Below are positions 12,688 through 19,737 of a stretch of 24,489 nucleotides of DNA, piece by piece (within the stretch, counting starts at the first letter, position 1; each line of letters opens with the position of its first letter). A program made the position numbers and the translations under genes. The DNA lies in IMG/VR virus record IMGVR_UViG_3300047550_001185, positions 1-24,489 of that record. The stretch is one strand, 5' to 3'. This DNA is from a virus. The notes under the pieces were generated by a model that was not told where the DNA came from, made no database searches, and saw only the letters and a list, made by a program, of their open reading frames with translations.

Positions 12688-14706
12688 CTAGAAGATCAGC
12701 ACGTTGCGGCGCCGTGCTGTGCTGGTTTTCTCCAGCGTTGCAGCATTGCCGGTGAATGCAAACGTTCCAGCATCAGCCGGCAGCTCAAAGGCACCCGTCT
12801 CGGTCAACGCAGCGCTGTTGCCGGTGAGAGCGAAAACGCCAGCACTGGCCTGCACAACACGGGTGCGGTTGAAGACCGCCGGCCGACCTGTGAGCGTGAA
12901 TGCTGCATTTGCGGCAAATAGGGTGCGGCTTGTTGCAAATGCAGCATTGCCGCCACTGAGCGCAAACGCGCCCGTGTCAGCCGACAGCACATGGCTGCGC
13001 GAAATCGCGACTCCGCCGCCTGTGAGCAGGAACTGGCCGGCCTCAGCCGCCAACTGCTCACTGTCGGCAAAGGTAATGGACTGGCCGGTGAAGCTGAAGT
13101 TGCCGCTGTCGACCGGCAGCACATAGCTGCGAACAAGGTCAACTGGTTGGCCGTCTAGTTGAAACTGCCCAGCTTCTGCAGCGACAGCCTGACTTTGCGT
13201 GAAATTCGCCTGCTGGCCGGTGACGCTGTAGCCGCCTGCGTCGACGCCGAAGAGGCGGTTGTGAGCCAATCCGGCCTGTTGGCCTGTCAGCGCAAAGCTG
13301 CCGACGATCGGGTCGATTTCAAATGCGCCCAGCGTGGTGAGCACTGCGGGCTGGCCGGTGAGCGAGAACTGCCCAGCGTCGGCGCCCAGCGCCCAGGTGC
13401 GACTGAAGGTGACCGACTGCCCGGTCTCGATGAACGTGCCGGCGCCGCCGCTGAGGTAGTAGCCGCGGAGCAGGGCGGGCTCGCCACCGCTAAGCGCGAA
13501 CGATCCAGCGTCGGCCGCCAGATCATGATCATGTAGCAGAGCGGCATTGTTGCCTACCAAGGCAAAGGATCCAGCCTCAACGACCAGCGAGTAGCTGCGG
13601 GTCAGGCTTGGTTCGCCGCCCGTCAGCGTGAAGGCGCCCGTCTGGCCCGCCAACTCGTCGGTGTCAGCCAGTCCGGCAGGATGGCCTACAAGGTCGAACG
13701 TGCCGGCCTCGGCCGTGATCGAGTAGGTGCGGCTGAATGAGGCAGCCTTTCCGTCCAGGGCAAAGGTGCCAGCTTCTGCCTGCAGCTCCTCGGCCGCTGC
13801 TATCGAAAAAGTGGCGTCGTTGCCGACCAGCGCGAACGATCCGGTGTCCGCCGCCAGCTGGTGCTGGTGCTGAAGCGTGGCGTCGTTGCCGACCAGCGCA
13901 AACAGGCCAGTCTCGCCGGCAATGTTGATGTTGTGCCGCGTGTCGGCCGGGTTGCCCGTAAGCGTGAACGCACCGCGCTCGCCGGTCATCACACGATTGC
14001 GCGTGAGGTCTGCGGCATTGCCTGTCAGCGTGAAGTCGCCGACGATCGGCGTCTCAGTCCGGTTGACCAGCTCGCGGACCGCGAAATAGACCGCAGCCAC
14101 GTCATCTGAGCCGGCACTGAAGCCAACGTTCCGAGCACCTTGCCCCGCCGTGGTCTCGCGGACCATCGCGGCGCCGAACTGGCCAAAGTCAATGCTGGTC
14201 AGAGCCGTGCTGCCAGTGCCGTCTCCCGTTGGCGTCGCCAGGCCGGAATAGGTGGCGGCATAGCGCAGGCTGTTAACGCCGACGCTTCCATCGTCGATGG
14301 AGACCACCGCCAGCGCTTGGTCACCCTCCCTGATCTGAACGCCGGCCCAGGTGGTGTTTGTCGCGGCGGTAACGGTCGCCGCCGACGCATACATGACCGT
14401 GGCGTTATTGGTCCGGTTGACCGTGATCGTCTGGTTGCCGGTGCCAAGCCCGGAGCCCAAGAAGAACATGTCGGTGCGACCAGGCTCACCGGCCGAGTCG
14501 ATCGCGACCGCGCCAGCGACACGAGTCAGTGCCGTGCCGCCATAGGTGACCGACGTGATGAAATCGCTGGCGCTGATCGTGTGAACAAAAACGAGCACAC
14601 CCTGCGGCGTGCCGCTTTGCGTGTGCGTCCAGCTGAATGACGCCTGGTTAGTTGAGCCTGTTGTACCTGTGTGGCTCTCGGAGGCAGCGCTATGGGCTAC
14701 AGCCAC
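12688..14706 (-). CDS. Large repeat-rich surface/fibre protein, 20 x 22-residue tandem repeats
   Basis: The product is 672 residues with two parts. Residues 1-219 are an all-beta N-terminal domain (SHTGTTGSTNQASFSWTHTQ, VTYGGTALTRVAGAV, TDMFFLGSGLGTGNQTITV). Residues 220-~660 are 20 tandem copies of a 22-residue motif, and the protein ends with a basic tail TARRRNVLIF. No signal peptide or membrane segment is seen. The start is GTG with GGAGG six bases upstream. It lies in a cluster of fibre genes between head and tail modules, so a virion surface fibre or appendage is the best inference. I recognise the repeat type as one I recall from proteobacterial prophage-like proteins, but not a function. 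A beta-solenoid fold is likely from the fixed period and alternating hydrophobics. Confidence 0.8.
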   Translation of the reverse strand: MAVAHSAASESHTGTTGSTNQASFSWTHTQSGTPQGVLVFVHTISASDFITSVTYGGTALTRVAGAVAIDSAGEPGRTDMFFLGSGLGTGNQTITVNRTNNATVMYASAATVTAATNTTWAGVQIREGDQALAVVSIDDGSVGVNSLRYAATYSGLATPTGDGTGSTALTSIDFGQFGAAMVRETTAGQGARNVGFSAGSDDVAAVYFAVRELVNRTETPIVGDFTLTGNAADLTRNRVMTGERGAFTLTGNPADTRHNINIAGETGLFALVGNDATLQHQHQLAADTGSFALVGNDATFSIAAAEELQAEAGTFALDGKAASFSRTYSITAEAGTFDLVGHPAGLADTDELAGQTGAFTLTGGEPSLTRSYSLVVEAGSFALVGNNAALLHDHDLAADAGSFALSGGEPALLRGYYLSGGAGTFIETGQSVTFSRTWALGADAGQFSLTGQPAVLTTLGAFEIDPIVGSFALTGQQAGLAHNRLFGVDAGGYSVTGQQANFTQSQAVAAEAGQFQLDGQPVDLVRSYVLPVDSGNFSFTGQSITFADSEQLAAEAGQFLLTGGGVAISRSHVLSADTGAFALSGGNAAFATSRTLFAANAAFTLTGRPAVFNRTRVVQASAGVFALTGNSAALTETGAFELPADAGTFAFTGNAATLEKTSTARRRNVLIF
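12727..14049 (-). repeat. Twenty tandem 66-bp (22-residue) coding repeats
   Basis: The consensus is x-E/D-A-G-x-F-x-L-T-G-x-x-A-x-L-x-R-x-x-x-L-x, for example AEAGTFALDGKAASFSRTYS, ADAGSFALSGGEPALLRGYY and VDSGNFSFTGQSITFADSEQ. Copies 4, 11 and 19 are 24 residues long, each gaining two residues near the end of the unit (SIAAAEELQ, TTLGAFEID, TETGAFELP). The G-x-F-x-L-T-G core is kept in nearly all copies; copy 18 has Ala for the first Gly and copy 10 has TFIETG. DNA identity between copies is moderate, so the array is old or diversified rather than freshly amplified. Confidence 0.9.
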
Positions 14707-15186: not shown

Positions 15187-16305
15187 TCAGAACGCCACCG
15201 ACAAACTGAACTCAGCCACGGTGCCGGTGACGCCCGTGATTTTCAGCCATACCCAGCGGTCGGCTGGAATCGGCTGGTTCTGCACCGTGGCGGCATCGCC
15301 AGTGGTGGTGTTCGTCACCGTGTCAGAAACGGTCGCCAGTGTGCCCGCAGTGGTGCGATCGGCCGCATAGCGCAGCTCGTAGGTGACGGATCCGCCTGAC
15401 ACCAAGCCAACCACGCTGCTGATCGTGGTCTCGCGGGATGTACGGAACAGCGTGAAGCTGTCATTGACCTGCGGACCGGCGATCGTGACGCTGCGAGGAG
15501 CGCTGCCATTCACAGGCGGCCGATGCTCCCAGCGGTTCATCGGATCAATCCAGGTCAGCACATCGCCGTCGTGAGCGTCGCTGGTCACAACATCGTGGCA
15601 GTCCTTCAAGAACTGACCAGTCGCTGCACGCACGAAGATCGTGCCGTTATTGGCTGAGCTAATCACCGCCGCCACCGACAGCTTCAGGTTCGGCCCATCA
15701 GGTTCGGCGGTCACATAGCCGCCAGGGTTGGCAGGGTCGCAATACAGAATTGAATCCTCGGGATACGCGCTGGTATTGATGCCGCGCACCTTGCCGAAGG
15801 TCGTGACAAACCCATCGCCACCCGCGGGCACTTCCTCGGTCATCACGCCAAGGAACACATGCCCAGGCAGCGTGCCGTTGGCGATCATTGGCGCCACCTG
15901 CAGTCGGCCGCTGTTGCCGTTGGTGCCCACATACATCACCGCAGCACCGTTCGCGATGGTGTTGGCAGTGTTGTTGTGAACCAGGAAGGACATCTCTTGG
16001 CCGACCTGCAGCACCGTGCCGCCACCCTTGGCGACATCAAGCGTCTGCTCGTCCTCGTTCCAGGCCAGCTCACCGGCATTGTCCGCGTTACCGCCCGTCG
16101 TCAGTAGCTGAATCGACTGAAGAGTTGGATTGCGGTTCAGCGGCGCATACTCAAGCTGACTCCAGGTCGAGCTGCCATTGCCGATCTTGGCCTGCTTCGT
16201 ATCGGTCTCGTAGCCCAGCTCACCAGCAGCCAACACGGGATTGGCCGCCGTCCAGTTCGCCGCTGTATCGCGCCGCAGCTTGATCCGTTGGCGAGTAGTA
16301 GCCAT
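15187..16305 (-). CDS. Tail-fibre-like protein with Mtd-type N-terminal domain
   Basis: The product is 372 residues in modules. Residues 1-~55 (QRIKLRRDTAANWTAANPVL, AGELGYETDTKQAKIGNGSS) match the N-terminal domain seen in Bordetella phage Mtd and many fibres. Residues ~72-230 form a widely used fibre module (VGQEMSFLVHNNTANTI, FLGVMTEEV, FGKVRGINTSA, SILYCDPANPGG). Residues ~238-265 are a linker (HDGDVLTWIDPMNRWEHRPP). Residues ~266-372 are a beta-sandwich-like tip (FTLFRTSRETTISSVVGLV, PADRWVWLKITGVTGTV). It probably is a trimeric receptor-binding or capsid/tail appendage. The C-terminus does not look like a C-type lectin, and no retroelement is nearby. Its ATG overlaps the gpFII-like stop (TGATG). 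Confidence 0.82.
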   Translation of the reverse strand: MATTRQRIKLRRDTAANWTAANPVLAAGELGYETDTKQAKIGNGSSTWSQLEYAPLNRNPTLQSIQLLTTGGNADNAGELAWNEDEQTLDVAKGGGTVLQVGQEMSFLVHNNTANTIANGAAVMYVGTNGNSGRLQVAPMIANGTLPGHVFLGVMTEEVPAGGDGFVTTFGKVRGINTSAYPEDSILYCDPANPGGYVTAEPDGPNLKLSVAAVISSANNGTIFVRAATGQFLKDCHDVVTSDAHDGDVLTWIDPMNRWEHRPPVNGSAPRSVTIAGPQVNDSFTLFRTSRETTISSVVGLVSGGSVTYELRYAADRTTAGTLATVSDTVTNTTTGDAATVQNQPIPADRWVWLKITGVTGTVAEFSLSVAF

Positions 16306-16736
16306 CAGCTCGCGCCTCCGCCGTCGATCTCATTGGTGTCCACCCATTCTGATCCGTCGTAGATCAGCGCATCGCCTTGCTGGGCGTTGGTGATGTTCAC
16401 ATCAGTCAGATCAGCCAGGCCGAACTGTCTCGGATCCTGACCTGGTGCGCTGCTTTCGGGCGCCAGCCTCGTCAGCATCAGCTCGGTCATTGCACCATCG
16501 TCGACCTTCAGCGCCTCGCGCACCTGGTAATTGACACCGTCCACCGTGATGCCGGCGCCATAAAGCAAACCGCCAAAATCAGCCGTCCGCACTGTCAACT
16601 TGTAGTCGGTGGTCAGCACCATCCCGTCAGCCACGATCTGGCTGGGCATGTCGAGGATGCCCTTGGCCGTCACCACGCCAGCCGTACAGGTGACCCCGAA
16701 ATCCTCGAGGAACATTCCAAGGTTCTCGGTGATCAC
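16305..16736 (-). CDS. gpFII-like head-tail joining protein with fibre-type C-terminal extension
   Basis: The product is 143 residues. Residues 1-~95 fit the small head-tail joining family of lambda gpFII (117 residues): MITENLGMFLEDFGVTCTAG, a TTDYKLTVRTADFGGL strand pair, then VDGVNYQVREALKVDDGAMT. Residues ~96-143 differ: FGLADLTDVNITNAQQGDAL followed by IYDGSEWVD is a motif I know from phage tail fibres, where it links modules. The extension ends in GGGAS. The start is GTG at 16736, overlapping the previous stop (GTGA); the end overlaps the fibre gene (TGATG). The joining role comes from position and family likeness; the extension's role is unknown. Confidence 0.72.
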   Translation of the reverse strand: MITENLGMFLEDFGVTCTAGVVTAKGILDMPSQIVADGMVLTTDYKLTVRTADFGGLLYGAGITVDGVNYQVREALKVDDGAMTELMLTRLAPESSAPGQDPRQFGLADLTDVNITNAQQGDALIYDGSEWVDTNEIDGGGAS

Positions 16737-17749
16737 AACGGCACCGCCTTCTGTCGTGCAATCAGGCTAGCCGCATCGCTTGCCAGCACAGCGACTTCAG
16801 TTCCAGCCCAGGCTGGCTGGCCCTTGATCATCACATCTCCGGTAAGGCGGATCCTTACCTCGCCGCGTGACGAAACGGCGGTAGAGATGCGCCGCATCTG
16901 CTCCACCCGGATCGCATCGATCGCGCAGTCCAGGTCGTTCCTGCCGTAGGCGATCAGTGCCTTCTGGCCAATCACCTCAAGCCCGCCTGGGAACACGCAA
17001 AGCGGCTGCCAGCCCTGCGCACCATCTGGCGCACCCCATTCCTCTTTTGCAGTCAGCACCGGTGCCGTCGACATCATCGAAGGCGCATGCGGCGCCGTAG
17101 CACCAAATGCCACCCATGCGGCGTGATACAGCCGACTGCGGCGCGGGTGTTTCTCCCAGCTGTGAAACATCGTCAGCTTCTGGCCCTGCCAGTCGACAGC
17201 AGGCGTGCCGCCGCTCATCCGGCCCCAGCGCCAGCGCAGGGGAGGGTGCCTCCACTCCTGCACCACCTCGTCGCCATCAAGTTCAAGTACGACCCAGCCG
17301 CTCGCACCCATGTCGTAGATGCAGCGCAGGGCACCCTCAGCCTCGAAGAACGTCCAGTTCTTTTCCTTGCTGCTCCAGTCGTTGACACCGTACTTCGGTA
17401 CCCACACATCAGTCAGGCTCCAGCTGCGGCTTTTCTTGATCAGTCGGCCGTACGCCTGCACGCACTTCCAACCTTGCTCAAGCCGATACCGGGCGATCGA
17501 GAACGCGATGTACGGACAATCGCCGTACATAAACAGCCGCGGATCCTCTAATGAGCATCCCTTCTCAATTCCAGGCACCTTCAGGCGCTGGTTGCGCAGC
17601 ACATTTTGCGCCGCATCCATCTCAGCAAGAATGATCTCGCTGACCTTGAAGTCTTTCGGTTCAGACCGGTACGCCAACAGAAAGCCCTCCCCGGCCGAAA
17701 CCAGGGAGGGGTTGTAGTTCCGCTTGGCCTCGATTAGCCCAGCGATCAT
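16733..17749 (-). CDS. GH130-like five-bladed beta-propeller protein in the head module
   Basis: The product is 338 residues. Residues ~1-290 have the pattern of five-bladed propeller glycosidases, closest by eye to GH130 mannoside phosphorylases/hydrolases: NYNPSLVSAGEGFLLAYRSE (11-30), SLEDPRLFMYGDCPYIAFS (66-84), KEKNWTFFEAEGALRCIYDM (128-147), SGGTPAV (179-185), SRLYHAAW (205-212) and YGRNDLDCAIDA (268-279). Asp69 of ED-x-R would be the family's proton donor, from memory. Residues ~295-338 (VRIRLTGDVMIKGQPAWAGT, then ASLIARQKAVPL) look like a small phage head-module protein. No signal peptide is present. The chosen ATG follows the capsid stop by two bases (TGAGCATG); a longer frame to 17890 lies within the capsid gene. 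Whether it is an enzyme, a lectin or a decoration protein is open. Confidence 0.72.
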   Translation of the reverse strand: MIAGLIEAKRNYNPSLVSAGEGFLLAYRSEPKDFKVSEIILAEMDAAQNVLRNQRLKVPGIEKGCSLEDPRLFMYGDCPYIAFSIARYRLEQGWKCVQAYGRLIKKSRSWSLTDVWVPKYGVNDWSSKEKNWTFFEAEGALRCIYDMGASGWVVLELDGDEVVQEWRHPPLRWRWGRMSGGTPAVDWQGQKLTMFHSWEKHPRRSRLYHAAWVAFGATAPHAPSMMSTAPVLTAKEEWGAPDGAQGWQPLCVFPGGLEVIGQKALIAYGRNDLDCAIDAIRVEQMRRISTAVSSRGEVRIRLTGDVMIKGQPAWAGTEVAVLASDAASLIARQKAVPL

Positions 17750-17751
17750 GC

Positions 17752-19737
17752 TCAGCTCAGAGCGCCGGTGCCGTAGCAGAAGGCGCCAGCTTGCTTCACA
17801 GCGAAGTCCACATCCTGCAGAGCAATGATGCGAACGGTGCCGCTGGTGGCGCCGGCATAAGGATCGAGGGTCAGATCCAGACCGGACCACAGGCCCATGA
17901 TCATCTGGTCGAAGGCACCGAAGATGATGTCGTCGAAGGCCAGCTGGTTGGAGATCACGGCGGGATAGCCGTTCACCTCGTTGTTCTCGTACACGAAGCC
18001 AGCAGCCACAGCAGAGGCAGACTTGGCGGTGGACTTGAGAGCGCCGCGAGCAGCAGCGTTCATCAGGTAGAACAGCGAGCCGGCGTCGGCGTTGTCCTTG
18101 GCCACCTCGGTCTCCATGTCGATCAGCTCGGCGAAGGTGCCGTAGCCGGTTAGAGCCTTGGTGTTGATGCCAACGGTGTTCACCAGGCCGAGGGGCTGGT
18201 TGCTGGAGCCGGAGCCGTAGATGCCAGCGCGGTCGATCTCGAGAGCGATCACGCGAGCCAGGTCGTTGCGCACCATCTGCTCCACGTCGATGGAGCTCTG
18301 GAGCAGCAGGCGGCGGCTGTAATCCACGAAGGCGCCCACAGTCTTGGGCGACATGGTCACCTGACCGAGGGTTTCCTGGCTCTCGGTAGGAGCGCTGCCC
18401 TCGCCGACCCAGTACGCGGTCGCCGCGCCGGTCTGTTTGGGAATTGCGATGTTGCCCTGCAGGCCGTTGAGCACGGTGGCGCCCACGTTGGCCAGAGCCA
18501 GCTTGTTGCGGAGCAGCTCGATGAACGAACCGGCCAGCAGGTCGGTAGCAACCAGGTTGCCGCCGGCGCTTGCGGTGCCGACGTTCAGGTCACGACGGAG
18601 CACCTCGTTGGGCACCATCAGACCGTTGGCGGGCTTGCCATAAGCCTTGGCAGCAGCGTCAGAAACCTCACGCTCGAAAGCGGCGGCTTCAGCAGCCTGC
18701 TTGTCGCCAGGGTTGGCGAGGTAGTTCAGAGCACGCAGGAAGGAGTAGCTGCGGGTCTCTTTGTCGTTCAGACCCACTTCCTGGGTCTCGGCGATGCGGT
18801 GCTCCACTTTGGTGCTGCGGGTGTCGATTTTTTCGAGGAAGGCAGCACGGGCCTCGTCGAGGCTGCGGCCACCGTCGATGAGCTCGCGTGCAAGCTCGGT
18901 CATGCCGTGCTTGTCGCCGAGGGCGGTGATGGAAGCGATACGGCTGCGCTCGGCCTCGACGGCCTTGGACCGGATCACCTCCACGTCAGGGGTGGTGTTC
19001 TCCATGTGAACCTCAGGTTCTTGAGGGGTTGGTGATGCGGCGGTGGCCGCAGAGTCGATCGCAAGCGACCGGCCAAGGCCGACGCTCGGGTCTGCAGCGA
19101 TGCTACAAACCGAGACTTCGTACGGACTCCATTGAGTAGCTACGAAGTTGTCGCCTCGCTCCTCCATTTTGTTGATGGAGTAGCCAAAGCTGACGCCCCG
19201 AAGAACGCCATCTTTGACATCAGCCATCACTTCCTTGGCGAAGCTGTTGCGGGAGAAACGTACTTTGACGTAGCCCCGCTTCTTCTTGCCGTCGATCCAG
19301 GCACGCTCGACGACACCCACGACCTTGTCAGGGTTGTGGTTGAAGAGCAGTGGAGCGCCGTCGTTCAGGCGACTGAGGTCGGCGGCGTCCATCTCGTGGC
19401 TCAGAACTTCGTTGCCGAAGTACCGGGCCACGGGATACTCGGAGCTGAAGGGGAACTCGAAAGTTCGATCTTCAAGCTCGGAGAATGAAGTGACCTCGGT
19501 GCGCTGGTACTTGCCCTCCAGTGAGCGATCGCCACCTTCGGCTATTTCCTGCGCATCGGACTCAGCCTCGGGGTCGACACCCATTAATGTCTCGACCGTG
19601 TCCTCGACGATTTCGTCCATGTGCTCGGCCACAACTTCAGCGATAGCTTCGCTGACAGCGGCCACTTGCTCTTCGGTCAGATCAGCAAGAGCGCGATCTT
19701 CCTCGGGTGTCTGGTTTTGTTCTTTGAGTTCGTCCAT
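17752..19737 (-). CDS. Fused prohead protease and HK97-fold major capsid protein
   Basis: The product is 661 residues and carries two normally separate proteins. Residues 1-70 are acidic and helical. Residues ~75-228 are an S78/U35-type prohead protease with His134 (FNHNPDK) and Ser183 (LRGVSFGYSI), and YEVSVCSIAADPSVG at the end. Residues ~250-325 are charged helical sequence (scaffold/delta-like). Residues ~326-661 are an HK97-type capsid subunit (GGNLVATDLLAGSFIELLRN, GLQGNIAIPKQTGAATAYWV, IYGSGSSNQPLGLVNT, FAVKQAGAFCYGTGALS). The protease presumably cleaves itself off within the prohead. A Met at 245 lies near the boundary (EVHMENTTP) and could be an internal start. The 5' start overlaps the portal stop. 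Confidence 0.93.
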   Translation of the reverse strand: MDELKEQNQTPEEDRALADLTEEQVAAVSEAIAEVVAEHMDEIVEDTVETLMGVDPEAESDAQEIAEGGDRSLEGKYQRTEVTSFSELEDRTFEFPFSSEYPVARYFGNEVLSHEMDAADLSRLNDGAPLLFNHNPDKVVGVVERAWIDGKKKRGYVKVRFSRNSFAKEVMADVKDGVLRGVSFGYSINKMEERGDNFVATQWSPYEVSVCSIAADPSVGLGRSLAIDSAATAASPTPQEPEVHMENTTPDVEVIRSKAVEAERSRIASITALGDKHGMTELARELIDGGRSLDEARAAFLEKIDTRSTKVEHRIAETQEVGLNDKETRSYSFLRALNYLANPGDKQAAEAAAFEREVSDAAAKAYGKPANGLMVPNEVLRRDLNVGTASAGGNLVATDLLAGSFIELLRNKLALANVGATVLNGLQGNIAIPKQTGAATAYWVGEGSAPTESQETLGQVTMSPKTVGAFVDYSRRLLLQSSIDVEQMVRNDLARVIALEIDRAGIYGSGSSNQPLGLVNTVGINTKALTGYGTFAELIDMETEVAKDNADAGSLFYLMNAAARGALKSTAKSASAVAAGFVYENNEVNGYPAVISNQLAFDDIIFGAFDQMIMGLWSGLDLTLDPYAGATSGTVRIIALQDVDFAVKQAGAFCYGTGALS

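Follow-up and report, generated by a model that had tools for sequence, protein, structure and literature searches.

The closest described counterparts of the locus analysed here are the GH130-type mannoside enzymes and the accessory proteins of tailed-phage heads. BT3780, a GH130 mannosidase, has a single candidate proton donor, Asp142; its minus-one mannose is held by Asn74 and Asp363, its plus-one sugar by Arg89 (PMC4599007). On the phage side, glycan-binding decoration proteins are known, namely Hoc of T4 and pb10 of T5 (PMC7602432); that review nowhere uses the word 'propeller'. The cement protein of phage BPP-1, Bbp16, is a jellyroll that is essential for infectious particles (PMC3863775). 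No GH130-type protein encoded in a phage head operon is described in the open-licence literature that we searched. We analysed a stretch of 24,489 nucleotides from a virus (IMG/VR record IMGVR_UViG_3300047550_001185; hereafter the window), in which a gene for a GH130-like propeller follows the capsid gene. The features that concern us are, in order of transcription:

17752..19737, minus strand: major capsid protein carrying a fused protease, directly upstream of the propeller gene (phrog_617, E = 1e-168; phrog_80, head maturation protease)
16733..17749, minus strand: whole gene (338 aa plus stop), in which a GH130-like propeller is joined to a DUF7210-like small domain
16886..17749, minus strand: five-bladed β-propeller, predicted GH130 fold, residues 1–288 (AF2 pLDDT 89.8; VIA Z 26.4; PF04041)
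17543..17545, minus strand: Asp69 (LEDPR), which aligns with the proton donor of GH130 enzymes, Asp142 in BT3780 (HMM alignment to Teth514_1788)
17354..17368, minus strand: KEKNW motif, residues 128–132, a viral-family signature (K130 and N131 invariant in 20/20)
16862..16894, minus strand: neutrally evolving linker, residues 286–296 (median dN/dS 1.13 versus 0.18 and 0.24 on its flanks)
16736..16861, minus strand: DUF7210-like domain, residues 297–338, homologous to a stand-alone ORF after the sister-phage capsid gene
16305..16736, minus strand: head closure Hc1-like protein (phrog_82, E = 1.8e-7), its start overlapping the propeller stop

The open reading frame runs from an ATG at 17749 to a stop at 16733. 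It starts two bases past the capsid stop, and its own stop codon shares sequence with the GTG at which the Hc1-like gene starts. The 338 aa protein contains the motifs NYNPS, SLEDPR, KEKNW, SGGTP, LYH and YGRND in that order. The original prediction had described this frame, its six motifs, its spacing and overlap, and a place between the capsid and a head-tail joiner; the sequence bears out each of these, and the profile matches of the two neighbours identify them as proposed. The propeller and capsid proteins are 100% identical to those on a 55.9 kb IMG/VR contig. By eye, this contig has a tyrosine-integrase-like ORF as well, and a helicase-like ORF seems to continue across its ends; it could therefore be the whole genome of a temperate phage. 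Two further genes of the window are recorded as side observations. Directly 3′ of Hc1 lies a gene for a 372 aa protein (15187-16305, minus strand) whose N-terminus matches tail fibre PHROGs, and a fibre-like gene is unusual at this place. A 672 aa protein (12688-14706, minus strand) consists mostly of ∼ 20-residue repeats (GxFALTGNxAxL) and has no PHROG match; a gene resembling it comes after a 139 aa gene in the sister phage L059.

The original prediction had assigned the propeller to the GH130 type and had set structure prediction followed by a fold search as the test. An initial AlphaFold2 model built from close relatives alone reached a pLDDT of 65.5 and its top matches were a mixture of GH43 and GH130. 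Addition of distant relatives settled the assignment, the 20-sequence alignment giving a pLDDT of 89.8 and a pTM of 0.81 for residues 1–288. In VIA this model is matched best by the GH130 structure 5ay9 (272 residues aligned at rmsd 2.8, Z 26.4), and every entry in ranks 1–21 is a GH130-type mannoside enzyme or a near relative of one, with Z from 26.4 down to 22.8 and an rmsd close to 3 Å across some 265 residues. The GT108 mannosyltransferases come next (Z 22.3) and GH43 enzymes follow at about Z 19 and below; Foldseek concurs with the GH130-type assignment. GT108 ranks below GH130 in this list and is the less likely assignment: the Leishmania mannosyltransferase/phosphorylases 6q4y and 6q50 have the same fold (Z 21–22), but GH130 structures match better (up to 26.4). 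Neither of the outcomes named beforehand as refuting the assignment, a different fold or a profile match to a known non-carbohydrate phage family, appeared. Profile searches point the same way. The Pfam model Glyco_hydro_130 is matched by 17 of the 20 family members, with 34.4 bits for the L018 homologue (above the 26-bit cut-off) and, for the window protein itself, 22.6 bits (E = 5.8e-5, below that cut-off), and a search of the PDB with the family profile returned GH130 chains (E = 1e-15). We therefore predict with high confidence, on the basis of the model, that residues 1–288 form a five-bladed propeller of the GH130 fold. On GH130 enzymes such as Teth514_1788 (9fj8), Uhgb_MP (4udg) and BT3780 (5a7v), the propeller superimposes with an rmsd of about 3 Å over 262–272 residues at an identity of only 12–16%.

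The similarity extends to the sugar site. The EDPR aspartate, the substrate asparagine, the arginine and the final aspartate occur in the same order in the GH130 enzymes and in the window protein, and profile alignments place N13, R28, D69 and D272 on N74, R89, D142 and D363 of BT3780, the correspondence with BT3780 itself relying on motifs that it has in common with the aligned GH130 chains. All four residues are invariant in 20/20 aligned members, down to 20% identity; Asp69, singled out beforehand as the active-site residue, is the one that aligns with the GH130 proton donor. For the chemistry, we compared the positions that we take to bind phosphate in Uhgb_MP. H196 fits one basic phosphate-site position and D146 stands where phosphorylases seem to have an arginine, both within the uncertain alignment of blade 3; with the same uncertainty, the three basic phosphate-binding residues of phosphorylases are not clearly kept, and the paired carboxylates of hydrolases are hard to place. 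Since the GH130-type sugar residues are invariant and those for phosphate or the water nucleophile are hard to assign, a sugar site is likely, and it may or may not be catalytic, given that the residues for phosphate lack clear conservation.

In contrast to the GH130 enzymes, the window protein is encoded in a head operon and is fused to a phage head-module domain. The original prediction had overlooked this domain: judged by profile comparison, the last 42 residues are a separate fused unit related to a 66–76 aa ORF of sister phages, whose capsids are 74–76% identical to that of the window. Residues 299–337 align with this ORF (hhalign P = 2.4e-5), and the propeller-family profile finds it in the record of the sister phage L058 (E = 9.5e-5). 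Against the ORF profile the window domain scores 24.2 bits, and the best of 1000 shuffles scored 17.1 and the next 7.5. The match of residues 297–338 to Pfam DUF7210 (PF23843) is below the cut-off (E = 0.16), and a search for PDB relatives gave chance matches only. A profile search found no second copy of the domain in the two genomes examined for it (G001 and G012). The C-terminal extension of the distant L083 and L084 propellers was considered as a further DUF7210-like domain, and the comparison gave no support.

Relatives of the gene occur on 20 IMG/VR contigs at 66–100% identity. All 17 full-length copies are intact, encode 336–338 aa, start two bases past the capsid stop and precede Hc1. 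Median dN/dS values are 0.18 for residues 1–285 (78 pairs), 1.13 for the linker (residues 286–296) and 0.24 for residues 297–338. The propeller value resembles those of the capsid C-terminus (0.21) and of Hc1 (0.14). The propeller and the small domain are both under purifying selection and the linker is neutral; the gene therefore encodes a maintained two-domain protein. The number of related contigs, the constant position and length and the dN/dS of 0.18 rule out a chance ORF or a stray insertion, and the original claim of membership in the head operon stands. The capsid tree fits a single gain of the propeller in 70% of bootstrap trees.

What occupies this position in relatives is a second point that had been overlooked. 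In the sister phages and in the Synechococcus phages S-LBS1, S-CBS1 and S-CBS3 (capsids 49–53% identical to the window capsid), the capsid gene is followed by the 66–76 aa ORF and then by a gene for a ∼ 127 aa protein, with Hc1 further downstream. This ∼ 127 aa family gives a match to Bbp16, the cement protein of BPP-1 (E = 1e-5), and its homologues in other phages are annotated as minor capsid or virion structural proteins. The propeller gene therefore occupies the place where relatives keep a cement gene, with a fold unrelated to the Bbp16 jellyroll. Neither the window nor any of 15 related propeller-clade records (11 of them 43–57 kb) has a match to the cement profile; the profile matches 8/8 sister records, as expected, since these are rows, or near-copies of rows, of the profile itself. 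What is informative here is that the propeller clade lacks the gene: over the 24 records searched, the cement gene is missing exactly where the propeller occurs. The earlier statement that the window holds no lambda-D-type decoration gene is in line with this, the sister-phage cement gene being missing there too. Achromobacter phage Mano and Rhodobacter phage RcCronus have only a DUF7210-like ORF between capsid and Hc1 (a weak match in RcCronus, 9.4 bits). The DUF7210-like domain is the constant element of the slot, and cement is dispensable without a substitute, so that functional replacement of cement by the fusion is possible but not required. S-CBS1 and S-CBS3 carry Mtd-type receptor-binding genes between capsid and Hc1 (L076:7610-8671 and L077:7835-8995), and the interval therefore accepts host-recognition genes; these belong to the Mtd family and, unlike the window propeller, are separate, unfused genes.

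These data suggest that a GH130-type sugar-binding propeller was joined to the N-terminal end of the small DUF7210-like protein encoded directly after the capsid. The fusion would have taken over the slot held in sister phages by the small ORF and the cement gene, and its product would, from its place in the operon, be made late, together with the capsid and neck proteins. As the DUF7210-like family does not itself indicate a function, we take its role from synteny: most likely it attaches the fusion protein to the head or neck. The propeller would then sit on the virion and may bind, or slowly cleave, a host envelope or capsule glycan, acting as an extra head protein in contact with host glycans much as Hoc and pb10 do (PMC7602432); Hoc has Ig-like domains and the window protein a propeller. 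From sequence and synteny we put the probability that this is a glycan-active module, grafted on a conserved head-module protein and associated with the virion, at roughly one half. The fuller proposal, that a virion-borne GH130-fold protein tethered by the DUF7210-like domain in the cement slot acts on mannoside-type glycans during adsorption and represents a new class of head part, is tentative, and we lean slightly against it. The fold, the invariant subsite, the fused core small ORF, the fixed position and the absence of cement speak for a virion protein; against it are distant homologues that lie next to, or are fused to, glycan-synthesis enzymes, and the loss of cement without replacement elsewhere.

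Some of the distant homologues are encoded on large AT-rich contigs, others in phages. On one of the AT-rich contigs, of 79 kb, a Glycos_transf_1 domain is fused to a GH130-like propeller (L082:3822-5876), and methyltransferase genes come after the propeller genes of L084 and L085. BFVD predicted structures include giant-virus homologues, some of them multidomain proteins and some named LicD, WcaK pyruvyl transferase or fucosyltransferase. Taken as a whole, the wider family points to a part in glycan handling; its associations with glycan synthesis keep alive the alternative of a late intracellular enzyme (phosphorylase-, hydrolase- or GT108-like transferase) that tailors a capsid or host-envelope sugar, its place in the head operon being explained by co-expression. 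That GT108 mannosyltransferases share the fold (Z 22.3) and that some GH130 relatives are predicted to act in the bacterial cytoplasm (PMC6784887) fits such an enzyme as well. However, it leaves the fusion to a head-module domain unexplained, the phosphate-binding residues are not clearly kept, and a search for GT2 genes, confined to that family, found none in ten 49–57 kb records of the clade. We regard an intracellular enzyme as the main alternative, less likely than the virion reading.

Several other observations concern these distant relatives. L083, L084 and L085 are phage-like contigs in which a methyltransferase gene follows the propeller homologue; some of their large ORFs resemble scaffold or capsid genes and have no match in PHROGs or the annotated phage collection, and no confirming match was found for portal, scaffold or capsid labels, which therefore carry no weight here. 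The N-terminal part of a further fusion (L104:3846-5477) looks by eye like a heptosyltransferase (GT9) and precedes a propeller of the same family; Pfam has no match for this fusion, which adjoins methyltransferase- and GT2-like ORFs. The annotated phage collection holds no homologue of the window protein or of the L085 and L044 propellers. Two scans of contigs for bacterial homologues gave candidate stretches, none of which was confirmed as a relative.

Homologues at different points of unrelated phage genomes, such as that of L044, which has a Mu-type portal on one side and a minor head protein on the other, are what one would expect if a sugar enzyme had been acquired horizontally for a benefit unrelated to the virion, with the loss of cement and the fusion as by-products of recombination; the dispensability of the cement gene in related phages agrees with this. 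Such a moron is nevertheless improbable, for the same fusion and position recur in 17/17 copies, down to 66% identity, and purifying selection acts on the fused domain too (dN/dS 0.24). Least probable of all is a purely structural substitute for cement with a vestigial sugar pocket: the exact complementarity of cement and propeller in the 24 records and the essential role of Bbp16 in BPP-1 (PMC3863775) fit it, but the pocket residues are invariant in 20 members down to 20% identity, and relatives exist with neither cement nor any substitute.

The preferred reading, a virion-associated fusion, connects a fold known from carbohydrate-active enzymes of bacterial mannan metabolism, and found also in giant-virus glycan proteins, with the head module of a tailed phage. 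Nature here provides a graft of a putative sugar-active domain on a conserved protein of the head operon, and the fusion offers a way into the role of that small DUF7210-like protein. If the protein is carried on the virion, it would add another fold to the glycan-binding head proteins, and the interval between capsid and Hc1 would be suggested as a swap site at which structural cement is exchanged for host-recognition modules. A family of uncultured bacterial viruses carries a propeller resembling mannose enzymes directly 3′ of its capsid gene, and this propeller may be a sugar-handling part of the virion.
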